A stretch of DNA of 24,265 nt from a virus. Location: positions 1-24,265 of IMG/VR virus record IMGVR_UViG_3300013372_003612; one strand, written 5' to 3'. The translations under genes and the position numbers were made by a program. Within the stretch, counting starts at the first letter, position 1, and each line of letters starts with the position of its first letter. Shown piece by piece: positions 1,101 through 23,832 of this stretch. Below the pieces are notes generated by a model. The model did no database searches. It was not told the DNA's origin and saw only the letters and a program-made list of their open reading frames with translations.

Positions 1101-1174
1101 GCGTCGGTAGCTCAATTGGATAGAGCAACAGACTTCTAATCTGTAGGTTGTAGGTTCAATCCCTGCCCGACGCG
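1101..1174 (+). tRNA. tRNA-Arg (anticodon TCT)
   Basis: A full cloverleaf can be folded. The acceptor stem is GCGTCGG (1101-1107) with CCGACGC (1167-1173). The D stem is GCTC/GAGC (1110-1113, 1123-1126). The anticodon stem is ACAGA/TCTGT (1128-1132, 1140-1144), and the T stem is GTAGG/CCTGC (1150-1154, 1162-1166) with loop TTCAATC. The anticodon loop CTTCTAA puts TCT at 1135-1137 and reads AGA. The discriminator is G1174, and CCA is not encoded. Phage tRNAs of this kind usually supplement codons that are rarer in the host. It sits between two protein genes on the same strand. Confidence 0.96.
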
Positions 1175-1211
1175 CGTTGTAAGTCGCATTTACTTGAGGT
1201 AATGTCTGGTT

Positions 1212-3646: not shown

Positions 3647-3655
3647 TTATCCACA
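3647..3655 (+). promoter_or_regulatory. DnaA-box-like site TTATCCACA
   Basis: An exact TTATCCACA, the classical DnaA-box consensus, lies 24 bp from a second copy in the same orientation. Four further copies, on the opposite strand, lie in the three cassettes on the right. Confidence 0.5.
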
Positions 3656-4352: not shown

Positions 4353-7300
4353 ATGACGACATTTGAGTTTGACACTAAAGCAGGCAACCGTGCTATGCGA
4401 CGCTTAGGCAATAAACTCAAGAACTCCATAGGTCGCACGGGTGGCATAAATGCCAATGTCAGATTTGACCCCAATGCTTTTGATGGCGACGATGATGGTC
4501 TAGTCCAAGACGCTACCCCTTTTGAGCGACCTGCCCTACCTACTGCTAAGCCACCTGCTAGTTCTGACCCACGCTCAATACCACGACCACGAATACCTTT
4601 GACTACAGGCTCACCAAAGAAGCGCCCACTCATATCGTTAGGTAGAAACAGAAACAACCCGATACTTTCTTTACGCCGAAAAGGTAATAGACCTGCTGGC
4701 TATCCTGACCACCTATCGCATAGTTCATTAAGCGACATAGTGAATTATGCCGTTGCTAAAAACAGAGACGAACTTTTTATTAGTTTTTCTGATTTTCGTG
4801 CTGGTACACCAGAACAGTGGGATACACCAAACGACACAAATGGCTATATGTATCACTTAATTGAATCAGAATTAGCCAAAAAAATGGCGGAACTAGCATT
4901 ACAGAACTTGAGCATAAAAAAAAGCCCTGATGACACACCACTAGAGCCAGATTTCTCCCCAGAGGCACAAGCAATAGCAAGAGAATTTGTAGAAAACGGA
5001 TTAAAAAATCCTTTGATGCTTGAGATTGTCAAAAAATTTGGTATCCCTAAAGTGGTGGTCAATAAAAACAAAGACCCACGATATGCCGCTTACTATGTCA
5101 ATCACTTAAACACTATTTTTATTGACGCAGACGCATTTCAAACACTTAAATCGCTTAGTGGTAGAGAACAAAACGAATTTGATATTTTACAAACTAGAGA
5201 TGGCAGAAAAATACTCACACGGGCGATAATTAACCCAACCAACGAAGGTACTTTTGCTCACGAATATGGTCATTACATTAAAGAACTATTGCGCCTTGAA
5301 GATAAATACCACGCTAAGTCCCCAAGCACTAGTGACGACCGTAAATCAACCACCATTCGCAATCGTTTTCTTTACCCTAAGGGGGATGAAGACAGTCATC
5401 CGTTATCTCTACCTGAAATTAGACAATTCTGGGGGCACTCGTTAAACACATCCATCGGAGCGGGGCGCCGCAGCGAAGCAAAGACGAAAGACCGTATATA
5501 CGCAGACAGCATATACGCCGAAGAAAATGATGACGAATTGTTTGCTGAAGCGTTCTCAGCCCTAATGCGACCAGACAATGAAGGATTGGTCAATGATTTT
5601 ACGGTTCAATACTTTTCCGACCTGCTTGGACTGCCGACACGACCAAGCAAGGGGCATAATTCAATAAAACTACAACTACCCTCTCAACAACTAATGCCAG
5701 ACGGCAGACCTTTGTTGCCGTTGTTGCCACGCAATAGACCAAATGTTGGGGTAAGAAGCAACAACCGTCTACACGATAAAAACAATCCAATTACCGTCTC
5801 TCACGGCAGAGCCAGACAAGGTTTATTCAGTATCGGTAATCATAGGTTTTACGACCAAGACCGACAATCTTTATATTTAGTCGGTGATAACCAAACACTA
5901 AGAGACGCCGTTGTCGCAGGTAGTCGCTTTTTAGGTGATGATACTCACGGCAATATCGTAAGAAATATATCTCGTGTCCAACTAGGTTTCCCCTTAAACG
6001 ATATGCCACTAACGGGCAATGAGAACGACGAAGATATGGATATTTATCGCGCACTCATCACGGGGGATATTGCTCAACTACCATACAGCGAGCGTCGTGC
6101 TATAGAAAAAGCAGTCAAAGATGCTAACGACATATTTGTAGGTATTCAAGACAGCCCCAAGACAGATAAGCCTCTTTATCGTGTTCTAGATACAGACTTA
6201 AACACTTTTTTGAACTCTTTCAGTGAAGGCGATGAGTTGCCTCTACCTATAACGAGTTTTACTGAAGACTTTGACGACGAAGCACCAATTGTTCTCAAGA
6301 TTAACAAAGACGCACGGGCGCTCTCGCTTGGAGAAGATTACCTAACACAAGGTACATTCCGTGTATCACGGCTCACGAGAGACAAAGACAGAGCAATAGC
6401 CGAGTTAGACCACGTAGAAACCTTTGACCCAAGACACGACGCTATGCGTGCTGTCGTCGGTGATGATGTCCCACAGACAATGCGAAGTCGGGGCCTCGCT
6501 AGTAGACGCTACACAGACGCAGAGGCTCAAGCAATAGTCGCAGACAGGGATGAACGAGCAGACCTTACAACAAGTGAATACGACGTTGATTTAGACACCA
6601 ACGAAGCGCTTGACACTCTCATACAAGAAGAAATGCCAGACGATACTTTGCTTACTAGAATTAAAAACACCGTTGAGCGTTTTGTCCAACAGAAAATAGA
6701 TGCCCGTCTAGCCAAGCACCAAGCATTTATGACGGAAAGATACTCTATTGAGAAACCTTACGTTCAAGATGCGGAAGTGTTGAAGAGGTGGACCACACCA
6801 GAAGTTGGCAGATTAATCCTCAGTGTTAATAAGAAAATTGATTTCGCCAATAAAGCAGCGGGGAACAAATATTCCATAGTCAGTAGTCTTGACGCAGACG
6901 GAATTAGAAAACTTATTGAAACTTCTAAATACACCTACACTAGGTCTGACCCTGAATGGGATGGTACTGACAGAAGCCTTGAATTGAATTTGACACCAGA
7001 AGAAAAAGATGCCCTACAAACAATGGCTGACGCTCTAGAGGCGACAGAACGTGCGTATCTAAATAAAGTTAAATTACCAATTGAGAAAAGTCATATAGTC
7101 GTTCAGGGACAGGCGATAATGCGGATAGGTCGTCACAGTTCGGGCGACACGATTGAGTTCAACGCACAGATATTTGATTACGCCGCTCCATTTAATCAAG
7201 GAGTAGAACCAATACGGGTTGGCAGAATGAACCGAATCATAATGAAGCCATCAAGCCCTGATGCTTTGTTCCCGTCTAGCCGTGAAACAGCAGAAGTCCA

Positions 7301-10300
7301 TCACGCATCACTATTTATCTCCGAGCAAGAATATAAAGGCTTAGGCATCGCTGGGTTGCTCAATACCCACTCATATGCTTGGTGGCAAAGGGCAGGATTT
7401 GGTCGGGTCCATCTCGAACCAGCAGCAGACGGTCCATTCGTTTGGCAGTTGCTTGGATTTGTCCACGCAGAAGACGAAGTTGTGCCATTGCGTGTTTACG
7501 CAAAAGATGCGATTGGTCCTCTACAAAGAGAATTAAAAAATTATCTCAAAGGCAAGCCAGACACAATTATCGCAAACGACGCCACAGCGGCACGGGTTGC
7601 TTGGTGGATACGAGCAACCGAACGCGACCCAGAACTTGCGAGTTTTGTAACTCTTGCCAACTTGTTTGACCTTACGCCCAAGAATAAATCGCTTCTGTCA
7701 AACTTCTTCAAGTACGAAATCGGGGCTGGCGGAGGTTTTGGCACCACCCTAGAAATGTCTTTGGCTGATAAGCCTACTGTCTATATGCCGTATCATATCC
7801 TACCGAAAGACCCACTTAAGTTCGTACAGCAATCAGCCAACTTGGGTGTGCGCTCAAGTTCAGGCAACTTAATGGTTAGTAAATATCATTTGATTAACAA
7901 TGATGATGATTCAATCCCTATCACTCAAGAACAGGCTTCGTTTTGGGCACAAACAATAAAAGATGCTGAAGCCTTTAGGGAGAGCAACCCTGGGCGAATC
8001 AACACAGCGTCGCAACAAGATTATGTTATTAATTCTTTATTTGAATCAGCTGGATATAACCTCCCACCAATTTTAATAACAAGAGCAAACGTCGCATCCC
8101 TGATAAATAAAAAGGATAGCGCATTCGGGGGTGTGGGGAGGCAGGGGAACAATAGATTTTACCCATACACAGTTATAGCAAGAGGCAATGGGATTAGAGC
8201 AGCGTCTTTAGGGATGGATGCTGATGTTGCGACACGTCAGTATATGACAGGGCCCCGCTTTATTGAGACAATGAACTCTGGTTTCCTACACGGTGGTGGC
8301 GATTATTTCACCGCACATCCTCTTACGTGGGCGCATCATTTTGCGACCTTAGATAAAGATGGTAATTTTATTTCTGCGTTAGATGACAACAATAAATCAG
8401 CCACGCTTGCCTTAATCCCGCCGTCTTCTCGTGTGGGGAGTTATGAAGAATACACGCGAACTCAAAACGAGTTATTCCAACTATTAGACTTAGACGGAAT
8501 AGCGACAACCCAACATCAATGGCAAGAAGATACCTTTCAAGGAGATAATCTCCCCCAAAGCATCTTGTGGCTATACAACCCAGCAACGTCAGTTGAGGCA
8601 CAACGGGCTAGACGAGCAAAGATAATGTCTCTTGATAGCGAGAACCTGTCACCATCGGTTAAATCAATTCTTAATCTAATTTACGAACTAGAAGATGCTA
8701 AAACTGAAGGCAATAAGGAAGACATAACACGGGTTCAAAGGTTGTTTGCGTATCCAAGCGAAGCAGTTTATGGCGTACTACACGGGTATGACGTGATGAC
8801 GAGAAAAGTTACGGGTTCACACAATAACGATTCTAGGACATACGAAGGTTCGGTTATGACCGTCTTGAATCGCTCAGCGTTAATGGTTGTTGATGAACCA
8901 ATGTCCTTACTTGAATCCCACAGTTTTGTTACCAATCTCAGAAGAGGCATCACCACATATCTTGGTAAAGATACGACTTTTCAAGATGGAGAGTCAACTC
9001 CAGATTGGATACAGTTTTTTGGGAAGGGCAGTGGTCAAATTGCCGTCGCGAAAAGAGAAGAAGCAAAAAGAAAAATAGACACACAAGCGGCACTCGCCGT
9101 TAGAGATTATGTCCGACAGGGACAATTAAGACAGAGCGCGCTAAGAAGGCAAGAAGATTCTACTGCTGGGGCTAAACCTTACGGGCTCAGAAGTCGCACG
9201 GATAAAAACTTATACAACACTTTATATAAGAGACTCCGAGATGCGGTTGAGGGTAATTCAAGACCGTTGACAGCCTTGTTTTTTATTGCTTCACCAGAAA
9301 ACATAGAAGCATATGCCAGAAAACTCGCAGAAGAATACAATCTATATACAGAGCAAATCAACGCATTGCGTCTCAAACTAGACAACGCAGAGATTGATGC
9401 TTTGACCGACACGGAAATCTCCGACCTTGAACGACAGCTAGAGAATCTCACGGGTCGTCTTGAGACAACAATCAACTCATGGGGGAGTTATGTCGGGACT
9501 GCCAACCAACTAAGCCGAGAAAGAATTGCTGTTCAAGGAAGAAAGAAAGCGATTCTTGCTATCTTGAGAAAAATTGAATCTCATCTGGGTGATGATTATG
9601 GTAACAACAAATTGGTCATTAAACTTCGCAATGAATTAGAACGAATAGCTAAACGAGAAAAATTACTATCAAGAGATTCGGTTTATAAGGACAATGGGGT
9701 AAACATTGCTGACGCAGGAGATTACTCAAGAAGACTTCGCGACGTTTTGACCCAAACAGGTGGTCCCGCTCTTGGCGACCTTGATTTCCCAGAGTATGAA
9801 GATGATGACGACACCCTCAATTACGATTTTGAAAACGAATTTCAGTCATTAATGATTGATGCTGAAGATGCCAAAGCCATTCCTTCCAATGAGCCTTGGG
9901 ATGACGCAGACCAAGATAACCCACGGGTGTCTATGACGGGCATTCCTGTTGACGTTCTTAGAAAAATTAAAGCAATGATGGCACGCGCGCGACACAAGAA
10001 CACACCAAAACCAGAAGCTGAGGTTGCTGAAAGAAAAGCCAAAGAACTGATGGCTAAACACCGACCAGACCTTGCTAACGAGTCGTTTTTACGGGGCCTG
10101 CGGTCATCTTCACAAGGTCTACAGTCGCGGGTGTACCGAATGGTTGGAGGCGAAGAAGACCAAGAAATTTTATTAATGCTTGATTCAGGAATGTCAGTAG
10201 AAGAAATAGCGAAAACACTAAATAAATCAACTACTGGGATAAACCTCAGAATGAACATGATGAAAAAAGCAGGGATAAATGTCCCAACGCCAAACAACCC

Positions 10301-11156
10301 TAAAAAAAATTCATTGGATGAAGCACGAAGTCTTCGGCGGGAATTACGGTTAAATAAGTTTCTTGAATTCAGGGACGAAGCCGTAGTCAGCCCTGGACAA
10401 GTCAGCAGGTTGCTTGCTGACTTGAGAAGAATCGATAACAATAAAAAAATTAAAAAACATATGAAACGCCTTGAAAAAGAAAATTCTGGCACTTTTAGTG
10501 ACTACGTTAAAGACTTTTTTAAGCTAAACCTTGACTACACAGCTGATTTTATAAAATTAGCCCAGTTGTTAAGATTAACCCCTCCTAGCGACCGAAACCC
10601 AAATAGACGAGGTCCTGAAATTGACAAGCCACTCTATGTAACAGTAAACTTAATGTTACTTGCTGGCTTTAGTACCAGAGAAATAGCAAGCGGGCTAGAT
10701 ATATCAACTGGTACAGTGTCAAAATATAGAAAAGAATTCACAGATGTTATTAAAACAAATTTGCCTCGAGATGTAAAATCTTTAAATTCATCTACTCCAC
10801 TATGGGTAGATTTGGCTGTCGATTCATTTGAACACGAAATATTGGGTGAATCGTACGCAATTAAGGGCGTATACACGAAGCCGACATTGCGTAATCGTCT
10901 AAAATCGGAGATTCTTAGAAGCAGCAGAGGCGGGGCCCCTGGCCAATGGAGCGCACGGAAAGCTCAACTACTTGCCAATGACTATCGTAAAGCGGGTGGT
11001 GGCTACAGAACTAACCGCCCATCTCGCAAACAAATGGCTCTAAAGAAGTGGAACAAGAAGTCCTACAAAAAGAAACTAGGCGAAGAAATTGGTCGCAAGT
11101 ATGTTCGTGTGTCCAAAACAATCAAGGAACGCCAAAAAGAAAAGACTAAACGATAA
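4353..11156 (+). CDS. Giant polyvalent phage protein: peptidase-like, two ADP-ribosyltransferase-like, GNAT-like and HTH regions
   Basis: This 2,267-aa product is probably packed in the virion and delivered to the host. From the N-terminus: a DxDxDG peptide at 44-53 before TPFERP; a metallopeptidase-like motif HEYGH (303-307) with a possible third ligand in FAEAF (E399); and an ADP-ribosyltransferase-like region with YR (609-610), SFT (635-637) and GEDYL-QGTF (660-669). A GNAT-like fold lies around 910-1050, with YKGLGIAGLL as its acetyl-CoA loop (994-1003). A second ADP-ribosyltransferase-like region has ARG (1276-1278), GGGDYFTAH (1314-1322), GYD (1478-1480) and VLNRSAL (1504-1510). Long charged helices follow (about 1550-1830), then two helix-turn-helix motifs near 1938-1967 and 2095-2126, and a Lys/Arg-rich tail. 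The first transferase's ExE glutamates are not clear. Domain calls rest on motif reading only. I found no frameshift. Confidence 0.8.
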   Translation: MTTFEFDTKAGNRAMRRLGNKLKNSIGRTGGINANVRFDPNAFDGDDDGLVQDATPFERPALPTAKPPASSDPRSIPRPRIPLTTGSPKKRPLISLGRNRNNPILSLRRKGNRPAGYPDHLSHSSLSDIVNYAVAKNRDELFISFSDFRAGTPEQWDTPNDTNGYMYHLIESELAKKMAELALQNLSIKKSPDDTPLEPDFSPEAQAIAREFVENGLKNPLMLEIVKKFGIPKVVVNKNKDPRYAAYYVNHLNTIFIDADAFQTLKSLSGREQNEFDILQTRDGRKILTRAIINPTNEGTFAHEYGHYIKELLRLEDKYHAKSPSTSDDRKSTTIRNRFLYPKGDEDSHPLSLPEIRQFWGHSLNTSIGAGRRSEAKTKDRIYADSIYAEENDDELFAEAFSALMRPDNEGLVNDFTVQYFSDLLGLPTRPSKGHNSIKLQLPSQQLMPDGRPLLPLLPRNRPNVGVRSNNRLHDKNNPITVSHGRARQGLFSIGNHRFYDQDRQSLYLVGDNQTLRDAVVAGSRFLGDDTHGNIVRNISRVQLGFPLNDMPLTGNENDEDMDIYRALITGDIAQLPYSERRAIEKAVKDANDIFVGIQDSPKTDKPLYRVLDTDLNTFLNSFSEGDELPLPITSFTEDFDDEAPIVLKINKDARALSLGEDYLTQGTFRVSRLTRDKDRAIAELDHVETFDPRHDAMRAVVGDDVPQTMRSRGLASRRYTDAEAQAIVADRDERADLTTSEYDVDLDTNEALDTLIQEEMPDDTLLTRIKNTVERFVQQKIDARLAKHQAFMTERYSIEKPYVQDAEVLKRWTTPEVGRLILSVNKKIDFANKAAGNKYSIVSSLDADGIRKLIETSKYTYTRSDPEWDGTDRSLELNLTPEEKDALQTMADALEATERAYLNKVKLPIEKSHIVVQGQAIMRIGRHSSGDTIEFNAQIFDYAAPFNQGVEPIRVGRMNRIIMKPSSPDALFPSSRETAEVHHASLFISEQEYKGLGIAGLLNTHSYAWWQRAGFGRVHLEPAADGPFVWQLLGFVHAEDEVVPLRVYAKDAIGPLQRELKNYLKGKPDTIIANDATAARVAWWIRATERDPELASFVTLANLFDLTPKNKSLLSNFFKYEIGAGGGFGTTLEMSLADKPTVYMPYHILPKDPLKFVQQSANLGVRSSSGNLMVSKYHLINNDDDSIPITQEQASFWAQTIKDAEAFRESNPGRINTASQQDYVINSLFESAGYNLPPILITRANVASLINKKDSAFGGVGRQGNNRFYPYTVIARGNGIRAASLGMDADVATRQYMTGPRFIETMNSGFLHGGGDYFTAHPLTWAHHFATLDKDGNFISALDDNNKSATLALIPPSSRVGSYEEYTRTQNELFQLLDLDGIATTQHQWQEDTFQGDNLPQSILWLYNPATSVEAQRARRAKIMSLDSENLSPSVKSILNLIYELEDAKTEGNKEDITRVQRLFAYPSEAVYGVLHGYDVMTRKVTGSHNNDSRTYEGSVMTVLNRSALMVVDEPMSLLESHSFVTNLRRGITTYLGKDTTFQDGESTPDWIQFFGKGSGQIAVAKREEAKRKIDTQAALAVRDYVRQGQLRQSALRRQEDSTAGAKPYGLRSRTDKNLYNTLYKRLRDAVEGNSRPLTALFFIASPENIEAYARKLAEEYNLYTEQINALRLKLDNAEIDALTDTEISDLERQLENLTGRLETTINSWGSYVGTANQLSRERIAVQGRKKAILAILRKIESHLGDDYGNNKLVIKLRNELERIAKREKLLSRDSVYKDNGVNIADAGDYSRRLRDVLTQTGGPALGDLDFPEYEDDDDTLNYDFENEFQSLMIDAEDAKAIPSNEPWDDADQDNPRVSMTGIPVDVLRKIKAMMARARHKNTPKPEAEVAERKAKELMAKHRPDLANESFLRGLRSSSQGLQSRVYRMVGGEEDQEILLMLDSGMSVEEIAKTLNKSTTGINLRMNMMKKAGINVPTPNNPKKNSLDEARSLRRELRLNKFLEFRDEAVVSPGQVSRLLADLRRIDNNKKIKKHMKRLEKENSGTFSDYVKDFFKLNLDYTADFIKLAQLLRLTPPSDRNPNRRGPEIDKPLYVTVNLMLLAGFSTREIASGLDISTGTVSKYRKEFTDVIKTNLPRDVKSLNSSTPLWVDLAVDSFEHEILGESYAIKGVYTKPTLRNRLKSEILRSSRGGAPGQWSARKAQLLANDYRKAGGGYRTNRPSRKQMALKKWNKKSYKKKLGEEIGRKYVRVSKTIKERQKEKTKR

Positions 11157-11416
11157 TGAATCAAAATCAAAAATGGGAATTACTCGGCGAATTAGCCTCA
11201 TACCCACCACTTACCAACCTAGAAATAGCCGAAGAATACCGTGGGTTGGTTTATGCTCTACTCATAGATAGAGCGGAACAAAAGTTTAGTAAAGAGATTC
11301 AAGAAGCCCAAGAATACAGAATAAACTCTTCACGAAACCCGATTAAGGCATTAGAGAATTACCTTCGCGATAACCCTAAAATGAAATTAAATCAATTTAA
11401 AAGAAACTTACCGTAA
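11156..11416 (+). CDS. Small hypothetical protein downstream of the giant gene (86 aa)
   Basis: The start codon shares one base with the giant gene's stop (TAATG at 11154-11158), a typical translational coupling. The 86-aa product is helical and charged, with LTNLEIAEEYRGLVYALLID in the first half and a basic C-terminus (MKLNQFKRNLP). No family is recognised. It may be an accessory or chaperone for the giant protein, judging only from the coupling. Its last 9 nt overlap the end of the ribbon-helix-helix gene on the other strand. Confidence 0.6.
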   Translation: MNQNQKWELLGELASYPPLTNLEIAEEYRGLVYALLIDRAEQKFSKEIQEAQEYRINSSRNPIKALENYLRDNPKMKLNQFKRNLP

Positions 11417-11728
11417 TCTAGTATCGCATTTAAGACAAAACTCAGACCACGGGAAAGACTTGCGATGTTCTATCGGGTGAGCACAGTCAAGAATTTCTGT
11501 TGCTCTTTTGTTCATCGTCTCCCTAAATAACTGAGACAATGTAACCCCTTCTTTTTCTGCCGCTCGCTTCCATCTGTCTTTTTCTTCAGGGGTCGTGCGT
11601 ATGAGCACCTGCGCGCCCGCGGGGCCGTCGTCTTGTTTGTTGGCGATTGGAGAAACTCCCATAGAGATAGTCTCAACTACCTTGTCCATCGCCGCTTTCA
11701 AGTTGTCGTTGATTGTCTTCTTCTCCAT
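11408..11728 (-). CDS. Ribbon-helix-helix DNA-binding protein with C-terminal zinc knuckle
   Basis: Residues VLIRTTPEEKDRWKRAAEKE followed by GVTLSQLFRETMNKRA match the strand-helix-helix pattern of Arc/CopG-type regulators. After it come DCAHPIEHR and FCLKCDTRLR, whose Cys and His residues could bind zinc. The ATG at 11728 is preferred to the TTG at 11734 because GAGGTG lies 7 nt before it. The gene overlaps the preceding HTH gene by 56 nt and is last in the block of - strand genes. It is probably an autoregulator or an accessory DNA-binding factor. Confidence 0.65.
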   Translation of the reverse strand: MEKKTINDNLKAAMDKVVETISMGVSPIANKQDDGPAGAQVLIRTTPEEKDRWKRAAEKEGVTLSQLFRETMNKRATEILDCAHPIEHRKSFPWSEFCLKCDTRLR

Positions 11729-12326
11729 TTTCAATCACCTCAGCATCCACAATACCTTTTTTACCCAGTAGTTCGGCGACAGTATCTAGTGGTAACACGC
11801 CAGAAACACCCATTATCCTCAGCAATTCGCGAGCTTCTGTTTCTGCATCAAAAGAAACCCTCTGTGGACCCATGCCTTCTTGCCCCGCTAAAGTTGCACG
11901 GATTGGCTGGGTATCACGGGCACTAATATCCATCTGGACATTTACGTTGTTTTGCTCCATACCTAATAGTTTTGACCTTCTATCCATGATTCCAAGCACC
12001 TGTTGGATTGCTTTGAGGTCTGGTTCAACTTGTACTTCAGTGCCATCATCAAGAGTTACTTTCCTATGTTGAGTTAAGGGCCAAATAGCTGCTTGTAAGC
12101 CATCAAGTCTTTCTAATTCCATTCTCAACACTTCAGGGTACGCCATCTGTGTCTCACGGTTAAGTTTCTCTAGCGTTCTATTTATTGCGCTTGAAACTAT
12201 TCGCGATGATACGCCAAATCTTCTGCCAATCTCTGCGACCGACATACCTGCTTGACGCATTTTAAATATGCGCGAGTCTCTTTCAGCCAGAAACTCTTTT
12301 GAAATCATCTTGTTGTTATCGCTCAC
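11673..12326 (-). CDS. HTH protein, small-terminase-like
   Basis: The 217-aa product begins with a GTG that overlaps the primase stop as GTGA. A helix-turn-helix is seen near residues 18-45 (FKMRQAGMSVAEIGRRFGVS then SRIVSSAINRTL). Then come MELERLDGLQAAIWPL and, further on, QQVLGIMDRRSKLLGM, a pattern I associate with phage small-terminase-like or related DNA-binding proteins. No large terminase is in the window, so that role is tentative. The N-terminus also resembles resolvase or transposase HTH domains. Its tail is acidic and overlaps the next gene. Confidence 0.5.
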   Translation of the reverse strand: MSDNNKMISKEFLAERDSRIFKMRQAGMSVAEIGRRFGVSSRIVSSAINRTLEKLNRETQMAYPEVLRMELERLDGLQAAIWPLTQHRKVTLDDGTEVQVEPDLKAIQQVLGIMDRRSKLLGMEQNNVNVQMDISARDTQPIRATLAGQEGMGPQRVSFDAETEARELLRIMGVSGVLPLDTVAELLGKKGIVDAEVIENGEEDNQRQLESGDGQGS

Positions 12327-15057: not shown

Positions 15058-15079
15058 TTGTTCCTATTACGGATACCCT
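15051..15079 (+). promoter_or_regulatory. TATTACGGA-type promoter for the gene at 15086
   Basis: -35 TAGTCA (15051-15056), 17 bp, -10 TACCCT (15074-15079), with CTATTACGGA filling the end of the spacer (15064-15073). Exactly 6 nt separate the -10 from ATG 15086. A second TATAGT (15092-15097) lies 6 nt before the in-frame ATG at 15104. Confidence 0.5.
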
Positions 15080-16084: not shown

Positions 16085-16416
16085 AAAGTTTAGCAACAAT
16101 GGAAGACTCATTTAAATTCAAAACCCTACACGAATTCGGGACTGAGCAAAACGACCAAGCCAAAGATATTTTGAAATTGGCTGGCTGGAAGATACACCGA
16201 GATGAATCACAGAAGATTTACTATCTAATCCACAATAGTTCGGGTCAGATTATTCATTTTCGATGGCTTGAAGAGACTGATTATCAGTTGTACTCGCACG
16301 CTTTATCACTATTGGCGACAAGAATACATAAGAACGTATTTGAGAACTTTGAAAACTATTGGGACACTACTTTGCCCTCTTCACACAACCAAGGCGATAA
16401 CCCAATTTATTGCTAA
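16081..16416 (+). CDS. Hypothetical protein (111 aa)
   Basis: The start overlaps the preceding stop as ATGA. The 111-aa product contains AKDILKLAGWKIHRDESQKI, a strand pair (YYLIHNSSGQIIHFRW) and a long helix (YQLYSHALSLLATRIHKNVF). The layout suggests a small alpha/beta protein. No family is recognised. An internal ATG at residue 7 is an alternative start. Its last 4 nt overlap the end of the deacetylase-like gene on the other strand. Confidence 0.55.
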   Translation: MKSLATMEDSFKFKTLHEFGTEQNDQAKDILKLAGWKIHRDESQKIYYLIHNSSGQIIHFRWLEETDYQLYSHALSLLATRIHKNVFENFENYWDTTLPSSHNQGDNPIYC

Positions 16417-17327
16417 TTAGCCAGTTGCGCCCAAATTGTTTTTTGCGGTGAATTGCGACCACTAAACAACTCGATTGTTGTCTTATGTAATTCAACCAAC
16501 TCGCTCATATTGCCATACCCGCCCGCCATGACAACAACTGTTGGAATGTCTTTAAGCAATTGAGAAACATACATTTCTCGCATTTTGACTGTTAATGCCG
16601 AAAGTTGTGGATAAATATCTACTCCAGCATTGTATAAAACAATGTCAGTGTTGTCAAGTGAAATATTTTCGTCAATTACTTTCACACAAGCGTTCAGATA
16701 GTCGTTGCTGTTCAAAGTAAGCCAATCATTAAATACGTGCAAGATGTCGGTCGGGGCTTCTGGTTCATAAGTATCAAACGGTTCAATGGATACATCTATT
16801 TGTCTAATCTTGTCATTGCCTTTTTTGCGTTGGTCTTTAATAAACTCGTAAGTTCCACCACCGCAATGTGCATCTAAATCAAGGATAGTTACACGCTTCT
16901 CGTGATATCTAGACGCGTAAATAGCCCCGAGAGCCAGCGAGTTGATTGTACAAAACCCTTTGCCTTTTTGGGGAGTTGCGTGATGTAGCCCGCTTGATAA
17001 TGAACAAGAGACATTGTTCCCACCTATAGCGTCATCTATAGCTTGAAGCACCCCAGCAGTTGAGTTAGCGACCATTTCGTAGATGCCGTAATCCCAATTA
17101 AAACCATTGGTTTGTGCGAGTTTTCTATCAACGCCAGTCTTGATTGCGTCTAGGTAGTCTTTGTTTGTGTAGGCCCCGATAATCGTATTTGCTTTCTCAA
17201 GCATTTCTTTCGGGTCAGATATTTCATATCCGTCTTTTTTTAACGCCTCAACAATGTGTTTGGCTTTTTTAAGCGTCTCAAACTCGTAAATTGGAGCAAC
17301 ATAGTAATCGTTATAGTAAATATTCAT
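16413..17327 (-). CDS. Histone-deacetylase/AcuC-like zinc hydrolase
   Basis: The 304-aa product belongs to the arginase/deacetylase superfamily, which removes acyl groups from lysine or polyamine nitrogens. The active-site elements are present: the HH dyad in SGLHHATPQKGKGFC (H115, H116), zinc ligands D152 and H154 in LDLDAHCGGGT, D237 in NAGVDIYP, and GGY (269-271) for the catalytic tyrosine. The usual HHGNGT is here HCGGGT, a small departure. Length matches single-domain bacterial members (about 300-375 aa). The substrate is unknown; a deacylase that reverses acetylation or acts on acetyl-polyamines is possible. The start ATG lies 6 nt after TATATT. A phage deacetylase next to SNF2 and SSB suggests host reprogramming. 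Confidence 0.85.
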   Translation of the reverse strand: MNIYYNDYYVAPIYEFETLKKAKHIVEALKKDGYEISDPKEMLEKANTIIGAYTNKDYLDAIKTGVDRKLAQTNGFNWDYGIYEMVANSTAGVLQAIDDAIGGNNVSCSLSSGLHHATPQKGKGFCTINSLALGAIYASRYHEKRVTILDLDAHCGGGTYEFIKDQRKKGNDKIRQIDVSIEPFDTYEPEAPTDILHVFNDWLTLNSNDYLNACVKVIDENISLDNTDIVLYNAGVDIYPQLSALTVKMREMYVSQLLKDIPTVVVMAGGYGNMSELVELHKTTIELFSGRNSPQKTIWAQLAN

Positions 17328-17785: not shown

Positions 17786-17809
17786 TTCATTTCTCCTTTG
17801 GTACTTATT

Positions 17810-17838: not shown

Positions 17839-19773
17839 CTGCTTGGAATACAACCCCAACACCAACTGAGCGCCCAGTTCTAGTTCGTTTTCGGGGCTAC
17901 CACCATCAACGGCAGAGTTGACGACTGAGCGTTTTGACGAGATAAGTGAATATATTTCTTCATCAATCGTGTCAGCGCACAACGCATAGGTCGCAGTTAC
18001 TGAGCCCCGCTGCCCCATGCGATGCAAACGAGAGTAAGTCTGGTCAATATCAGCAGGAGTCCATGGCAGTTCCACAAACAAGATATCTTGAGCAGCTGTA
18101 AGAGTGTGCCCTGTTTTTGCAGCCTGAATACTTAAAACGATTACGGTGGCGGAAGAGTCCTCTTGGAATTTTTTCTTTACAGCCTCGACCTCATCTACCG
18201 TCATCCCGCCTTGTATTTTTAGTCCACCAAAACGATTGGCTAAAATATCAACAACATCTCTATGGTGTGCCGCGACAACTACTTTTGCTCCCCCTGAAGT
18301 TCGGGACTCAACCCACTCAACAATTGATTCCATCTTTGCATGCGCAGCCAATCGTCTAAGAACTGACAACTTAATTAAATTTTGTGCTGACTCTGCCTTC
18401 ATGCGCGCGCGTACACCCGCGGAGTGTGGTGACTGTCCCAGCTCTATGGCTATCTGTTTTGCTCGTTCTACCAAGAACTCAACTATGTCGGCTTCTGCTT
18501 TCTTGTATTCGGCCATTGGCCCCGCTGCGCCGCCCAGAATCAAACGCTGGTGGAAGACTGGAGGTAAATCGTGTAATACTTGGTCTTTTGTACGTCTGAT
18601 ATAACACACACTGCGAAGTTTTTCATTTAACTCCTCTAAGTTAGATGAACCTTCCAAATGCCACTGACCATACCTGTCTTGGAACGCCGCGCAGTATCTA
18701 CGATAAAACCCCCAAGTACCACCAAAGTCTTTTATTTTTCCAAGAATGTCTAATTGCGCAACATATTCTGCTGGTCTGTTGGTTACTGGCGTTCCAGTTA
18801 AAAGAAGCACGGGCGCGCCGCTCGGGGCTGAATGGATAATCTTTTTTGCTGACTTAGAACGCTTGGCGGTTAGCGTCTTGCAATAATGACTTTCATCCAA
18901 TACGTATGAGTTGTGGTTTTTTAATTCATTTTCCCAAAAAGTTATGTTTGAGTAACCAATCACCAGAACGTCGTAGGTCCCGCGCTGCGGGAATGGATTT
19001 TTCTCCCCTTTCCCACCCTTAATGATTTGCACTTGTCTTTTCGGTAGCCATTTGTTATACTCGGCTTTCCAGTTAAGAACCAAATTGGGTGGACAAACAA
19101 CAACTGCTGGGTAACTAATATCTTTTAGATGTTCCAATGTCGCAATCGCTTGCAGTGTTTTCCCTAATCCCATTTCATCTGCGATAAAAGTGCGCTTTGC
19201 TTTAGAGGCATAAACAACTCCTGCTTTTTGATATGGCAATAACGCATCGTTGAGCCCCGCGTCTTCCAGAATGATGTCGTCACTGACTGCTCGAGAAGCC
19301 TCTTTCAACTCAGATAATTGGCTGTTAATCCGAGTTGCCTCTACTTTGAGGTCTGCCGATATGGGCATATTGAATGTTTCTCCCCACCGCATTGCTTCGT
19401 TGATGGCCGTCAACGGGGCTCGCCACGCACGGGTCTTGCTATCCCAAGTAATTGACGGGATTTGCTTGACTGAACGCACCATAACGGGGTCGTAGGTGAA
19501 AGACAGGTAGATAACCCCATCTTTGATAAACACGCCTGAATGTTCTGCGCCACTCCTCTTGGGAATAGTGAACGTCAATACATCGTTATCTATTTCAAAT
19601 AAGTGTTTCTGAGCGAAGCCCCGAACCTCTGTCACGCTGTCCATTGGCGCACGCCAGACACGGCTAACTTTGTCCCATTTTGCGCCGTTAATTCGTTTGA
19701 TTTCCGCTACCTGATTAGAGTCGTAAGGGAAGTCTAATACGAGGTGATTATTGTCAAGATAGAGGCGAGACAC
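17833..19773 (-). CDS. SNF2-family DNA translocase/helicase with two HARP-like repeats
   Basis: This 646-aa SF2 ATPase would translocate on duplex DNA and remodel or anneal forks. The helicase motifs are DEMGLGKT (199-206, Walker A), DESH (293-296), LLLTGTP (323-329) and QTYSRLHRMGQ (578-588, motif VI). Two N-terminal repeats, KWDKVSRVWRAP (32-43) and TWDSKTRAWRAP (109-120), resemble the HARP elements of SMARCAL1, an annealing helicase that restarts stalled forks. Length is normal for phage SNF2 proteins. The start is GTG at 19773, exactly 6 nt after a perfect TATAAT, so the mRNA is probably leaderless. It lies in the same region as SSB and the primase-helicase and likely serves replication or recombination. 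Confidence 0.92.
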   Translation of the reverse strand: MSRLYLDNNHLVLDFPYDSNQVAEIKRINGAKWDKVSRVWRAPMDSVTEVRGFAQKHLFEIDNDVLTFTIPKRSGAEHSGVFIKDGVIYLSFTYDPVMVRSVKQIPSITWDSKTRAWRAPLTAINEAMRWGETFNMPISADLKVEATRINSQLSELKEASRAVSDDIILEDAGLNDALLPYQKAGVVYASKAKRTFIADEMGLGKTLQAIATLEHLKDISYPAVVVCPPNLVLNWKAEYNKWLPKRQVQIIKGGKGEKNPFPQRGTYDVLVIGYSNITFWENELKNHNSYVLDESHYCKTLTAKRSKSAKKIIHSAPSGAPVLLLTGTPVTNRPAEYVAQLDILGKIKDFGGTWGFYRRYCAAFQDRYGQWHLEGSSNLEELNEKLRSVCYIRRTKDQVLHDLPPVFHQRLILGGAAGPMAEYKKAEADIVEFLVERAKQIAIELGQSPHSAGVRARMKAESAQNLIKLSVLRRLAAHAKMESIVEWVESRTSGGAKVVVAAHHRDVVDILANRFGGLKIQGGMTVDEVEAVKKKFQEDSSATVIVLSIQAAKTGHTLTAAQDILFVELPWTPADIDQTYSRLHRMGQRGSVTATYALCADTIDEEIYSLISSKRSVVNSAVDGGSPENELELGAQLVLGLYSKQL

Positions 19774-20245: not shown

Positions 20246-20410
20246 ATATTACCCGTAATAAGACACAATGACACCCTGTGGATAACTTAACCAGAATATG
20301 TGTCAGAGCCCCGAGACTTCTAATCTAAAAATCAAAATCAAAACCATCGCGCGGGGCCGCTCAGCGGCAAGATTTTACAGCAAGTTCTTACGGTGGCGGA
20401 AAGGAACTGT
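20246..20410 (-). repeat. Intergenic cassette A (promoter, DnaA box, core repeat)
   Basis: In - strand order: core CAGTTCC...AACTTGC (20410-20380), GGGGCC (20357-20352 region), A/T-rich DNA, TTATCCACA (20285-20277), GTGTCA (20274-20269), 17 bp ending in TTATTACGGG, TAATAT (20251-20246). Cassettes B and C repeat this order. The first 25 bp of the core are identical in A and B. Confidence 0.7.
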
Positions 20411-20579
20411 ATTTCTTTTGTGAGGTTGTATGTGAACTGAACAATAAGGGCTCAGCAGTATTGCTCTGCGTTTACACGGGTTATTATTCCATGTGCGAGA
20501 CTGACATTTTCTACGAGAGATAATTACAGTTTATCCGCAATAAGATTCAACTACAACGTAGTGGGTGTATAGTTAGATA
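20266..20579. other. Non-coding region with an orphan promoter
   Basis: About 310 bp without a gene between the 48-aa gene's promoter and the gene at 20580. It holds most of cassette A, a GCCGC-TGA-GCGGC hairpin near 20357-20369, and a - strand TTATTGCGGA-TAAACT (20543-20528) resembling the shared promoter but followed by no usable start codon. A short RNA reading from about 20521 into cassette A is possible. Confidence 0.4.
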
Positions 20580-20720
20580 ATGAAACCTGAGCAAGAAGAC
20601 GAAGTCGGGGCTCCCGAGCCATCAGACGAAGTTATACCTCAAGTTATACTTTCAAGCACTGCGAATTCTAGGTTCATCCAACAACTGCCTCGTCAATTGG
20701 GCTGTTGTCCTAAGAACTAG
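20580..20720 (+). CDS. Small hypothetical protein (46 aa), leaderless
   Basis: TATAGT (20568-20573) is followed by exactly 6 nt and ATG 20580. The product MKPEQEDEVGAPEPSDEVIP continues to a basic segment (SRFIQQLPRQLG) and ends CCPKN. The N-terminal half is acidic and Pro-rich, probably unstructured. No ribosome-binding site is visible, as expected of a leaderless gene. The stop overlaps the end of the opposite gene by 4 nt. The function is unknown. Confidence 0.5.
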   Translation: MKPEQEDEVGAPEPSDEVIPQVILSSTANSRFIQQLPRQLGCCPKN

Positions 20721-21088
20721 TTTGAGTTAGGTTTATCAACCCATTGCCCTAATTGAGCAATCTGAATTACGCCAGTCTCAGGATGTGTTCTCCACGCAAA
20801 CTGGCAACAAGGGGTGTCGTTTTCGCACGGGTGTTGCCCCGCTTGAATGGACTTCGCTAAGGCTGGGAAGACATAAAGGAATTTCATAACACAATCATGA
20901 CAAAGCACCCAGCGTTGAAACACCGTAATCCCAAACTCGGCTTCTAGGTCGTCGGAGAACCCTCCGTAATATCCAAAACTTTGGAATGGGAGCGACCATC
21001 CACTATCAGGCAAACCAGATTGGTAGGTAGACGGGGCTCCCTCACCGCAAGCAGAACAAATAACTTGTTCGGCAGTAGTGATATCCAT
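20717..21088 (-). CDS. Cysteine-rich protein (123 aa), leaderless
   Basis: Three cysteine pairs are present: CSAC (11-14), CHDC (63-66) and C88 with C94-C95. Aromatic Gly-rich text (GWSLPFQSFGYYGGF) lies between the first two. One or two zinc sites are likely. The ATG lies 6 nt after TATAGT, with GTTACGGA before it and TTGTTA at the -35 position. I do not recognise the family; a zinc-binding adaptor or nucleic-acid-binding role would be a guess. Confidence 0.65.
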   Translation of the reverse strand: MDITTAEQVICSACGEGAPSTYQSGLPDSGWSLPFQSFGYYGGFSDDLEAEFGITVFQRWVLCHDCVMKFLYVFPALAKSIQAGQHPCENDTPCCQFAWRTHPETGVIQIAQLGQWVDKPNSN

Positions 21089-21094
21089 AATTAA

Positions 21095-21138
21095 ACTATA
21101 TCCGTAACAGTGCGCATTAACAACATAGGTGATAATCT
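21095..21138. promoter_or_regulatory. Second divergent promoter pair
   Basis: - strand: TTGTTA (21123-21118), 17 bp ending in TGTTACGGA, TATAGT (21100-21095). + strand: GTGCGC (21110-21115), 17 bp, TAATCT (21133-21138). Each -10 is 6 nt from a start codon (21088 and 21145), and the two promoters interlock as at ssb. Confidence 0.5.
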
Positions 21139-21144
21139 ATGTAT

Positions 21145-21381
21145 ATGGAAAACAATGAAAAAACTGAACTAGAAATTAGACTTGAAAATTTGGAAGCCAA
21201 GTTTGATGAGGTCGCCCAGAAAATCGCGGAACTTCAGTCCCGCATCAAAGCTGACAAAGAAGCGAGAAACAAAGAAGTAAAGAACGATTTAATTGACAAT
21301 CGTCTTAACGCAATTAACTTGAAACTCCCAAAGTCCATCAGTGAATCTTTTGGGACTATTAACTCTCCTCGTAATAAGTAA
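21145..21381 (+). CDS. Coiled-coil protein (78 aa)
   Basis: The protein MENNEKTELEIRLENLEAKF has a heptad pattern through about residue 45 (ENLEAKFDEVAQKIAELQSR), then a basic stretch and a polar tail. A coiled-coil dimer is likely. ATG 21145 lies 6 nt after TAATCT; ATG 21139, two codons upstream, has AGGTGA 6 nt before it, so either start is possible. The function is unknown. Its 3' end overlaps the 36-aa gene on the other strand. Confidence 0.6.
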   Translation: MENNEKTELEIRLENLEAKFDEVAQKIAELQSRIKADKEARNKEVKNDLIDNRLNAINLKLPKSISESFGTINSPRNK

Positions 21382-21469
21382 TTTCGGGGCTCACCCACGC
21401 CCAACCCATAGGTATCTGATACCCATCGATGTCGTGGTCGTCTGACTGTGTTTCGTTTTCGTTTTCCAT
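21359..21469 (-). CDS. Possible 36-aa acidic protein
   Basis: ATG 21469 opens MENENETQSDDHDIDGYQIP followed by MGWAWVSPEITYYEES. The composition (acidic start, aromatic core) looks more like a real small phage protein than the longer frame that also covers this region. The ribosome-binding site is weak. It overlaps the coiled-coil gene by 23 nt at its end. Confidence 0.35.
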   Translation of the reverse strand: MENENETQSDDHDIDGYQIPMGWAWVSPEITYYEES

Positions 21470-21502
21470 AAATTTTGCTCGTTTGCCTTTACGAACGGCC
21501 CC

Positions 21503-21520
21503 GCCCAGCGGGGGCTGGGC
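21503..21520. terminator. Hairpin GCCCAGC-GGGG-GCTGGGC
   Basis: A perfect 7-bp G/C stem with a 4-nt loop, 16 nt past the stop of the 79-aa gene on the - strand. It is a likely terminator without a U-run. Confidence 0.5.
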
Positions 21521-21535
21521 AAGACAAGCCGTGCG

Positions 21536-21775
21536 TTAGTGGAACTTCTCAACTCCTTCAATATTGGCTGGCTCTGACATAAGTTCGTATGCCAACTCTG
21601 ATGCGAGTTTCGTGACGACCAAGAACAAGTCTTTAGCCGATACACTCGTCTCGGCACAATACTGCTCAAAGGCATTTGTGTCTCGGTAATCAGTCCATAG
21701 GGCTTTAAGCGCATCGCCTGCGATGTAGCCAACGCCCATATACTCGTCTCGGAAGACCTTCTCTAAAGTGTCCAT
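21536..21775 (-). CDS. Hypothetical protein (79 aa) with structured leader
   Basis: I start at ATG 21775, which has AGGAG 7 nt upstream; a longer frame to 21802 would run into the leader hairpin. The product is MDTLEKVFRDEYMGVGYIAG then helices ending ELMSEPANIEGVEKFH. It is helical and acidic, with no known family. The 60-nt leader contains a conserved segment and hairpin shared with the gene at 23367, which suggests common post-transcriptional control. Confidence 0.6.
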   Translation of the reverse strand: MDTLEKVFRDEYMGVGYIAGDALKALWTDYRDTNAFEQYCAETSVSAKDLFLVVTKLASELAYELMSEPANIEGVEKFH

Positions 21776-21835
21776 CGTGGTACTCCTGCCCCCGACCAGC
21801 ACGGGGGACTTTTTGTTTGGTTTGCTGATAGTTAC
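21776..21835 (-). promoter_or_regulatory. Conserved 5' leader with hairpin (copy 1)
   Basis: The - strand leader reads TAACTATCAGCAAACCAAAC, then AAAAAGT, CCCCC, a 9-nt loop and GGGGG (stem 21789-21807), then AGGAG. It matches the leader at 23368-23424 at about 28 of 31 positions before the hairpin, while the loops differ. Confidence 0.65.
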
Positions 21836-22001
21836 ACTCTACCCGTAATAAGACCTAATGACAATCTGTGGATAACCTGTGGATAACTCTGTGAGACAAA
21901 AATAAGAAATTGTCTCAGATAATTTTTTTAGGAGTTTTTAAGTCGGGGGCCCCGCCGCACGCGGGCGCGCGTATGCGCAAGTTCTTACGGTGGCGGAAAG
22001 G
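21836..22001 (-). repeat. Intergenic cassette B (promoter, two DnaA boxes, core repeat)
   Basis: - strand order: core ending GCAAG (22001-21977), GGGGCC (about 21946-21952), A/T-rich DNA, two TTATCCACA in tandem (21886-21878, 21875-21867), TTGTCA (21864-21859), 17 bp ending in TTATTACGGG, TAGAGT (21841-21836). The core differs from A only beyond its first 25 bp. Confidence 0.7.
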
Positions 22002-22007
22002 GATTAC

Positions 22008-22244
22008 TTACAGAGGAGACTTGAGTGATGTAAGTTCTTGTTCAAGTCCTGAACCATCGCAGTTGTCTAGGAGTTCATATAAGTTTTCTACCCATTTAGC
22101 AACGACCACAGGTACTCTTGCTGTGCTGAAATAATCTTGATAAGAACTTATCACCGACTCAACGGTGCTCGGGAGTCCCGAACCTTCACAATTTTTGGAA
22201 GCATTTAGAACCTCGTCAATAAAGGTTTTGTAATTTTTAGACAT
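22008..22244 (-). CDS. Hypothetical protein (78 aa) with an internal repeat
   Basis: I start at ATG 22244, which overlaps the upstream gene's stop by 8 nt; a longer frame to 22388 is only antisense extension through that gene. The product begins MSKNYKTFIDEVLNASKNCE. NCEGSGL (18-24) recurs as NCDGSGL (61-67), each after a helix, so the protein may be a duplicated helix-turn unit. The two cysteines could bind metal or form a disulphide. No family is recognised. Confidence 0.55.
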   Translation of the reverse strand: MSKNYKTFIDEVLNASKNCEGSGLPSTVESVISSYQDYFSTARVPVVVAKWVENLYELLDNCDGSGLEQELTSLKSPL

Positions 22245-22440
22245 CTCCAGCCTTCCCGAGTTTACGCACTTGTACTTCTTGGAAGTATTCACGCAACGTA
22301 CGTGCTTCTCGTTCTGCATCGTGTAAAGCGTTGTCTCCTTTAAAGATTGCCCACTCTTTATATGAGTAGTGTCCCTCGGTGAACGCAACGTCTGTTACAT
22401 CTTTGGGGTCATTGGCTATGACGATATATGTTTTTTCCAT
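22237..22440 (-). CDS. Hypothetical protein (67 aa), leaderless
   Basis: TAAAGT, 6 nt, then ATG 22440, with TTATTACGGA before the -10 and TTGTTA at the -35, the best-ordered example of the leaderless arrangement. The product begins MEKTYIVIANDPKDVTDVAF with strand-like text, then a charged helix (AEREARTLREYFQEVQVRKL). An alpha/beta small protein is likely; the function is unknown. Its stop overlaps the start of the next gene. Confidence 0.6.
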   Translation of the reverse strand: MEKTYIVIANDPKDVTDVAFTEGHYSYKEWAIFKGDNALHDAEREARTLREYFQEVQVRKLGKAGDV

Positions 22441-22446
22441 ATTTTT

Positions 22447-22475
22447 ACTTTATCCGTAATAACAAATAATAACAA
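22447..22475 (-). promoter_or_regulatory. TTATTACGGA-type leaderless promoter
   Basis: TTGTTA (22475-22470), 17 bp ending in TTATTACGGA, TAAAGT (22452-22447), 6 nt, ATG 22440. Confidence 0.65.
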
Positions 22476-22476
22476 C

Positions 22477-22674
22477 TTACAGTGAGCGGAGACCCGAAGA
22501 CGGGTGTCCGTGATTAAAGTATTCGGCACGTGACAAATCTTTGTATTCCCAGTTCGCCCACGCATCATACTCATCTTCTGTCATTTGTTCAAGTTGCTCG
22601 TCAGTTGGAACGTAACCTCGGGGCCACTTCTGCCACTCAGATACGGGCGCAACAAGTTTTAATTTATTTCGCAT
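22477..22674 (-). CDS. Hypothetical protein (65 aa)
   Basis: The start overlaps the preceding gene's end. The product MRNKLKLVAPVSEWQKWPRG continues YVPTDEQLEQMTEDEYDAWA, with Trp- and acid-rich helices. It is probably soluble, small and translationally coupled to the gene before it. No family is recognised, and no own promoter is seen. Confidence 0.55.
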   Translation of the reverse strand: MRNKLKLVAPVSEWQKWPRGYVPTDEQLEQMTEDEYDAWANWEYKDLSRAEYFNHGHPSSGLRSL

Positions 22675-23188
22675 TTATAAAGTCCAAGAAATTATGAGTT
22701 GCTTCAGCCACTGAACCACCAATGTCGTCAGCGTGGACTATCTCGTCAAACTGCGGGAGCCCCGAGTCGTCGTATCTGTAAGGCACTACGCTGTGTTTGA
22801 TAAGCCCTTCTTTACTGAAAGACATTATCGTGATACATTCGCTCACATCAGGGTTAATCCCTAGTTCTTTTTTAGCCTCTCCCTTAGTGAACTTAGGTAT
22901 TTCACCTTCTCTGTAGGTTTTTACATAAGCTTCAGAAACTAGAGCCCCGCGAAGCGGTGTCCCTAGTTCTGCCCATACTTCTTTGTAGATATTAGTTATT
23001 ATGTCAGCCATTGTGAAGTCGTCATTTGGGGTTGGAAGCGGTACGATATGCGTTTGCTCATCAGTTCGCCAAATCAGTATAGGCATTCCATCGGCGGGGC
23101 CGTTTGCGAAGTCGCACAAGGCTCGTTTTGCTTTTAATGTTGTCTGAATTACAGTTTCAACCCATTCGGGCATTTCTTGGTTATCCAT
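22664..23188 (-). CDS. Hypothetical protein (174 aa)
   Basis: I start at ATG 23188, whose A is shared with the previous stop (TAATG); the frame extended to 23227 would overlap that gene more. The product begins MDNQEMPEWVETVIQTTLKA and contains FTMADIITNIYKEVWAEL, an ECITIMSFSKEGLI strand and a C-terminal helix. It looks like an alpha/beta phage protein of unknown function. It is the middle gene of a three-gene run (23367 to 22477). Confidence 0.6.
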   Translation of the reverse strand: MDNQEMPEWVETVIQTTLKAKRALCDFANGPADGMPILIWRTDEQTHIVPLPTPNDDFTMADIITNIYKEVWAELGTPLRGALVSEAYVKTYREGEIPKFTKGEAKKELGINPDVSECITIMSFSKEGLIKHSVVPYRYDDSGLPQFDEIVHADDIGGSVAEATHNFLDFINAK

Positions 23189-23367
23189 TACGCAACTTCT
23201 AAAACTACGACATCTATCGCATTCCACTTAAGGTCTTTGGTGTCTATGCCGTAGTTATCCTTAATGACCCAACTTGCGACCTCAATAGCACCGTCTTCGT
23301 CTTTCTCGGTGTCTACAGTAGTGCTTAACACCATAAAGTCGGCAATAAATCTAATTTCGTATTTCAT
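23188..23367 (-). CDS. Hypothetical protein (59 aa) with structured leader
   Basis: ATG 23367 has AAGGA 4-5 nt upstream. The product MKYEIRFIADFMVLSTTVDT has two strands and an acidic turn (EKDEDGAIEVASWVIKDNYG), then a last strand VVVLEVA. It is a small alpha/beta protein, perhaps ferredoxin-like in topology. The leader shares the conserved segment and hairpin with the gene at 21775, and translation of the next gene is coupled by TAATG. Confidence 0.6.
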   Translation of the reverse strand: MKYEIRFIADFMVLSTTVDTEKDEDGAIEVASWVIKDNYGIDTKDLKWNAIDVVVLEVA

Positions 23368-23424
23368 AGTTTCCTTTGCCCCCAATCGGCTGGGGGACTT
23401 TGTGTTTGGTTTGCCGATACTTAA
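23368..23424 (-). promoter_or_regulatory. Conserved 5' leader with hairpin (copy 2)
   Basis: The leader reads TTAAGTATCGGCAAACCAAA then CACAAAGT, CCCCC, an 8-nt loop and GGGGG (stem 23379-23396), then AAGGAAAC. The segment before the hairpin is nearly the same as in copy 1. The promoter -10 is TAGTAT (23430-23425) after TTATTACGGG; the -35 position (GGGGAT) is poor. Confidence 0.65.
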
Positions 23425-23443
23425 ATACTACCCGTAATAAGAG

Positions 23444-23662
23444 TCAATCCCCACTCGGCTCTTGCAACGAACGGCAAGGCTCGTTATAGCAGTATTCAAC
23501 GCTACGACCCGTGACATAGGTGTCGCCTGCGTAGTACCATTCTTTGCAGTTGTCGCACTGGTACAGGGTTATCTCGTCAGTGCCATTGTGATTGAGCGTG
23601 ACCATATCGCCACACTCGCTTCTATAACGGTCAGAGACCGCAATTGCTTGTGAATTAGTCAT
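23444..23662 (-). CDS. Small zinc-ribbon protein (72 aa), leaderless
   Basis: TAATAT, 6 nt, ATG 23662 gives the leaderless arrangement, with TTATTACGGG before the -10 and TTGGAG at the -35. The product has CDNCKEWYYAGDTYV (C36, C39) and CYNEPC (C58, C63), a likely zinc ribbon. The middle resembles small phage proteins that bind zinc and nucleic acid, but the family is not recognised. Cassette C lies directly upstream. Confidence 0.65.
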   Translation of the reverse strand: MTNSQAIAVSDRYRSECGDMVTLNHNGTDEITLYQCDNCKEWYYAGDTYVTGRSVEYCYNEPCRSLQEPSGD

Positions 23663-23668
23663 ATTTCA

Positions 23669-23832
23669 ATATTACCCGTAATAAGCCATAACTCCAACTC
23701 TGTGGATAACTTGTGGGTAGACGACATTTTCGGCCCCGATAAAAAATTACAAAATTAAAATAAAAATAAAACGCGGGGCCCATGGCCAGTTAAGTGTTTG
23801 CGCAAGGGTTCACGGTGGCGGAAAGGAACTGT
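23669..23832 (-). repeat. Intergenic cassette C (promoter, DnaA box, core repeat)
   Basis: - strand order: core (23832-23802), GGGGCC (about 23775-23780), A/T-rich DNA, TTATCCACA (23709-23701), TTGGAG (23697-23692), 17 bp ending in TTATTACGGG, TAATAT (23674-23669). The core shares CACGGTGGCGGAAAGGAACT with cassette A apart from one base. Confidence 0.7.

Follow-up and report, generated by a model that had tools for sequence, protein, structure and literature searches.

Three intergenic cassettes in a phage genome fragment raise the question of which of their parts belongs to a conserved system, and what such a system might do. The fragment (IMG/VR virus record IMGVR_UViG_3300013372_003612; 24,265 bp, all of it analyzed and here called the window) carries cassettes A, B and C at positions 20246-20410, 21836-22001 and 23669-23832. 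A sequence-only reading had described each as five elements in constant order: a core, GGGGCC, A/T-rich DNA, DnaA boxes and a promoter. All of these elements are present where they were claimed to be; the 25-bp start of the core, GCAAGTTCTTACGGTGGCGGAAAGG, is identical in A and B, and C keeps CACGGTGGCGGAAAGGAACT. The core 15-mer, ACGGTGGCGGAAAGG, occurs three times in the window, against 0.00 expected by shuffling. The same reading took the core for a repeated phage element of an undescribed kind, to be expected in relatives, and a search of related genomes bears this out, with further copies in abundance. What relatives keep is the core and not the order; the other four elements are not constant among them and do not form one unit with it. 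The core is the only one of the five cassette parts that is a real, transferable feature.

A motif confined to one strand

A scan for the 15-mer core matched at least 119 stretches, many on contigs with several copies. Because a 15-mer also finds chance matches in the collection scanned, counts are based on multi-copy genomes: the window plus 29 multi-copy records taken whole (30 genomes), scanned for the motif with a weight matrix. All records are classed as linear and many are fragments; near-duplicate IMG/VR records were removed only in part, and gene calls and gene contexts come from a simple home-made model. The motif is asymmetric, with the consensus TTnCTcAA-N4-TtACGGTGGYGGAWRRS and a logo (186 copies) that reads T T. 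C T c A A.... T t A C G G T G G [C/T] G G A A A G [G/C]. Loci without the GGAAAGS form have GGAAGAS or GGATGAS in its place, and the general motif is therefore ACGGTGGYGGAWRRS. It is found in about 4-17 copies per genome in the early/replication region of uncultured phages, which are probably actinobacterial, and is kept across the phage group with clade variants. That the motif family as such is real is near certain. No description of the motif was found in the literature, and its letters gave chance matches only, among the matches listed; the isolate relative Tank has no copy, its best score being 7.7 bits. Actinobacteriophages also have other repeated intergenic motifs, start-associated and otherwise, but the familiar ones follow gene starts and have other sequences.

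Within genomes, the orientation of the motif is one-way to a near-absolute degree. Across the 30 genomes, the weight matrix recovers 235 copies one way and 1 the other. A second sample was chosen by c16, a protein of 123 aa in which a domain search finds a helicase-associated (HA) domain and a sigma70 region 4-like helix-turn-helix (HTH). About 310 loci were found by c16 alone, and in the 78 new loci within the best 80 scanned, the family [AT]CGGTGGNGGA lies opposite c16 432 times and on the same strand once. Twelve further genomes of 46-172 kb give 84 copies to 0, with controls at zero, and a separate set of loci chosen by primase gives 18 to 0. All four copies in the window are on the + strand amid genes on the - strand, a shared direction that the sequence-only reading had missed.

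The copies keep to a single strand whatever the direction of the genes. Thirteen genomes, drawn from both clades, contain both landmarks, and in every one the portal gene runs in the same direction as the motif and the terminase gene in the opposite direction; likewise c9, c12, c13, c17, c18 and c23 are sense, and c16 antisense, to the motif in both clades. Thirty early-gene families, however, differ between the clades in their relation to the motif, being antisense to it in clade 1 but sense in clade 2. In the window's clade (clade 1), 147 of 202 sites lie in leftward genes, as judged by the left-hand gene, and most sites are antisense to their genes, whereas 53 of the 57 sites in clade 2 are sense to early genes (47 +/+, 6 inside + genes). 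Orientation is constant relative to the portal, terminase and replication genes although 30 families have flipped, and it is therefore not set by transcription. This natural inversion of early genes relative to the motif is the strongest single result of the analysis.

The inversion bears on two readings of the motif. The sequence-only reading had compared the cassettes to the stoperators of some mycobacteriophages, those of cluster A (L5, TipsytheTRex) being sites at which a monomeric two-domain immunity repressor halts elongation. The two have features in common: both are asymmetric, intergenic sites in many copies, and a monomeric two-domain binder is a candidate here as well. The first bases GGTGG also resemble the stoperator sequence, GGTGGMTGTCAAG. 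The comparison nevertheless fails on orientation, given the flipped families, the mostly antisense sites of clade 1 and the sense sites of clade 2: the motif follows the genome axis. Stoperators must follow transcription, and reversed stoperators fail (PMC9283540); orientation independent of transcription therefore excludes an L5-type stoperator for the early arm of clade 1. The candidate binder (HA domain plus HTH) is unrelated in sequence, and the phages show no sign of lysogeny; tyrosine and serine integrases (PF00589/PF00239) are absent from the 30 records, many of them fragments. Taken together, a stoperator role is very improbable. The second reading, in which the motif would be a recombination or cassette-border sequence allowing early units to be exchanged, comparable to phage boundary sequences or integron attC sites, would suit direct repeats that occur at unit borders and the highly mosaic early gene content of the lineage. 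The lack of a tyrosine or serine recombinase in those records counts against it too, and a cassette that carried its own site would keep gene-to-site polarity, whereas the 30 families are opposite between clades. We regard this reading as improbable.

Protein c16 and a proposed role in strand-specific processing

The candidate binder, c16, is located outside the window fragment and is among the more conserved small proteins of the lineage. Each of the 78 new IMG/VR loci that it recovered has at least two motif copies, and at loci with full-length c16 the motif lies opposite it in 82 of 82 cases. Four full-length homologues in metagenome bins (48-54% identity) are each accompanied by 4-9 copies, without exception on the strand opposite c16, whereas the core motif is absent with four HTH-only homologues. 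The link between c16 and the motif is one at the level of the lineage, as other shared genes co-occur with the motif as well. We single out c16 because it is a predicted DNA-binding protein, and because its full-length homologues occur with the motif and the HTH-only ones without it. A search with c16 gave no match in 50,697 phage records, and Foldseek with the c16 model gave weak HTH/helicase-associated matches only.

Judging from the pattern, we favor, with a probability of roughly 35%, the reading that the motif is a c16-bound, nick-like site for strand-specific DNA processing or replication polarity. Each core would then be a copy of a polar DNA site that forms part of a system encoded by the phage. 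It is possible that c16 binds the motif as a monomer, each of its domains recognizing one half, and that the bound protein marks one DNA strand. The mark would serve DNA processing rather than transcription, through a site-specific nick or an equivalent strand-specific step of replication or packaging in the early region. Most motif sites are in gaps, many of them 1-2 bp away from a stop codon or immediately ahead of a start; we propose that they keep to the borders of transcription units because processing within a transcribed gene would do harm.

Of the known patterns, the closest is that of the nick motifs confined to one strand in phages tf, phiKMV and T5, with the sequences TACTRTGMC/WACTRTGAC in tf/Rembedalsseter (PMC3517423, PMC11780129) and CGAC-N5-CCTACTCCGG in phiKMV-like phages. 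Nick motifs are asymmetric, occur in 5-14 copies on one strand regardless of genes, are unevenly spread and are kept in a phage group with clade variants; restriction to a single strand, about 4-17 copies, uneven spread and clade variants give the present motif the same pattern as the tf type. It differs in being longer, mostly intergenic, unrelated in sequence and tied to a DNA-binding protein. Several observations weigh against a nick-like role. Known nick motifs are shorter, and those of the tf group lie to 88% in coding DNA, whereas the present sites are mostly in gaps. No nickase was identified, and the domain search recovered no nuclease domain in c16. Contig ends show no enrichment at sites (1 of about 60, against 0.6 expected). 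Two further points would be better explained by a role in transcription: in both clades, sites in the neighborhood of the replication genes are sense, and one orthologous copy coincides in part with the -35/spacer of a sigma70-like promoter.

In such a role, c16 would activate transcription or serve as a partial sigma-like factor, and the motif would be a rightward promoter or operator specific to the phage, driving the replication genes and, in the window's clade, convergent antisense RNA by which the leftward early genes would be shut off. The sigma70 region 4-like HTH of c16 is consistent with this, as are the position of the motif 1-26 bp ahead of many rightward starts and its place between c16 and c23 in nearly all clade 1 genomes. 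At an orthologous clade 2 site upstream of RepO-like and helicase-loader genes, the motif overlaps a good promoter, TTGACG-17-extended -10, with its own TTGACG followed by the extended -10 17 bp on. One orthologous site class apart, however, most sites lack a fitting -10 at 15-19 bp from the -35-like part: minus-arm sites have a -10 at the right distance in 3 cases, against 5.3 expected, and the logo shows no conserved base downstream of the motif. Only 1 of 20 lone rightward genes within the leftward arm has the motif, the structural genes are without it, and the early genes of clade 2 already have promoters of their own adjoining it. We consider a transcriptional role doubtful, albeit a genuine contender.

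Bound c16 might instead act as a polar roadblock, stopping leftward RNA polymerase or a replication fork from one side while letting traffic from the other through, as Tus-Ter and Reb1 do. The fixed polarity along the genome, the asymmetric site and the predicted two-domain DNA-binding architecture of c16 would all suit such a function, as would the clade 1 sites adjoining stop codons of leftward genes (about a quarter of sites are within 2 bp). A transcription stop would make no sense, however, beside the rightward genes of clade 2 or ahead of rightward starts, and it would be left unexplained why a fork barrier should recur at 2-kb intervals and nowhere but in the early region. The polar barriers Tus-Ter and Reb1/TTF-I share with the motif an asymmetric site whose effect would depend on direction, but their copy number and spread are unlike those seen here, and no sequence or protein similarity was shown. 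A roadblock is unlikely on this evidence. In our ranking, strand-specific processing precedes c16-dependent rightward transcription, and a polar roadblock comes after both; certainty attaches to the pattern, not to the function.

Neighbors of the motif in the gaps

In the window, sequence match, shuffling and weight matrix place motif copies A and C (ACGGTGGCGGAAAGG) at 20390-20404 (+) and 23812-23826 (+). Copy B, with the same sequence, lies at 21987-22001 (+); the leftward gene 22008-22388 has its stop codon 6 bp away. The logo places the upstream half of the bipartite motif (TT.CTcAA at -14..-7) at 20376-20383 (+; TACAGCAA) in A, 21973-21980 (+) in B and 23798-23805 (+; TTGCGCAA) in C. The fourth copy, ACGGTGGCGGAAGAG, at 18143-18157 (+), is antisense inside the SNF2 helicase gene and has a variant 3' end that is also met in clade 2.

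Between the core and the DnaA-type box TTATCCACA, each cassette has GGGGCC and A/T-rich DNA; a leftward sigma70-like promoter follows. The GGGGCC words were read from the sequence at 20353-20358, 21946-21951 and 23775-23780 (all +); the first lies within a GC-rich hairpin that is probably the terminator of the preceding leftward unit. As claimed, TTATCCACA stands beside each promoter, at 20277-20285 (-) in A, as a tandem pair 11 bp apart at 21867-21875 and 21878-21886 (-) in B, and at 23701-23709 (-) in C. Three further exact copies lie outside the cassettes at 3647, 3671 and 16606, two of them 24 bp apart.

This layout had been likened to an origin module joined to a promoter, with DnaA boxes next to A/T-rich DNA. 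Boxes of the TTATCCACA type are enriched about 28-fold 50-150 bp upstream of sites (106 against about 4) and 4.6-fold over other gaps. Gaps without the motif carry boxes too, however, and in relatives DnaA-type boxes stand near only 60 of 202 sites, with five genomes lacking a box at any site. The A/T-rich part is not constant, and A-tracts flank 26-42% of sites. In the window's clade, 65% of minus-arm sites have GGGGC/GCCCC words beside them, as against 24% and 11% elsewhere, and in clade 2 the promoter is on the other side of the core, running the opposite way. An origin module is thus a highly unlikely account of these sites. DnaA boxes, GGGGCC and A/T-rich DNA are optional neighbors of the motif, and GGGGC words, hairpins and A/T-rich tracts are gap features of the window's clade, not motif parts. 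Under strand-specific processing, boxes, hairpins and promoters would be nothing more than what the gaps between early transcription units usually contain.

The leftward early promoters of the cassettes, read from the sequence and as members of a repeat family, are GTGTCA-17-TAATAT at 20246-20274 (-), TTGTCA-17-TAGAGT at 21836-21864 (-) and TTGGAG-17-TAATAT at 23669-23697 (-). Early promoters carry a phage-specific spacer repeat, which in the window is TTATTACGGG (the spacer end in promoter A) and in genome G030 is GTAAATCTGATA, with 23 forward copies and 1 reverse. A shared spacer element, TTATTACGGGTA, lies just before or over the -10 at 17805, 20023, 20236, 21826, 22437, 23415 and 23659 (-), and is inverted at 15064 and 15817, so that it follows the direction of transcription. 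Elsewhere in the lineage, phages carry versions of their own, each in 20-30 copies; the element is possibly an operator.

One motif copy upstream of the RepO-like/helicase-loader genes (G030_27525, G034_30766, G014_19201 and orthologues) is followed by non-coding DNA that is conserved. This stretch has the TTGACG-17-extended -10 promoter in clade 2 and, in some clade 1 genomes, a loop with CCACCTGC; it is not in Rfam, and may be a replication origin or a new RNA. Downstream of one site class, 26 sequences gave no consensus RNA fold.

The phage lineage and its polarity

By shared genes, the 30 motif genomes are one lineage: an SNF2-type helicase and WhiB are common to 27 of them, and a single-stranded DNA-binding protein (SSB), a primase/helicase and a DUF932 protein to 23-24. 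The window's primase has its nearest isolate counterparts in Arthrobacter phages (about 30% protein identity), and megablast of the window against phage records gave no match. No single-subunit T7-like RNA polymerase was recognized by eye among the shared families; no dedicated domain search was run. Rfam recovered only tRNAs in the window and seven loci, and a tRNA-Arg (tct) lies at 1101-1175 (+) of the window.

Other genes of the window include one for a 2267-aa protein at 4353-11156 (+), with relatives of up to 3627 aa within the lineage, and one for a ribbon-helix-helix protein at 11408-11734 (-), whose homologue in G015 is a weak NikA-like Pfam match (E 4e-4). The product of 16413-17327 (-) resembles, by eye, a histone-deacetylase family enzyme (GLHHA, DLDAHCGGGT), which is unusual for a phage. 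Another strongly one-way repeat, CTAATAGATAACT, reaches up to 13 copies per 12 kb in loci L278, L280, L282, L284, L285 and L288.

For about 50 years, nicks in phage DNA have been on record without a function being assigned to them (PMC11780129). More broadly, strand-exclusive repeated motifs are among the oldest unsolved features of phage DNA. To these, an independent large lineage adds a longer motif, a candidate binder and a natural inversion of neighbor genes, which separates transcription roles from genome-axis roles. We suggest, tentatively, a phage-wide polarity code, in which an HA-HTH protein would read one-way sites that direct a DNA process (nicking, fork or packaging) in the early region. 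If true, this code would span a large uncultured lineage without an isolate among the 50,697 phage records searched, and would have persisted through at least one reversal in the direction of the early genes along the genome axis.

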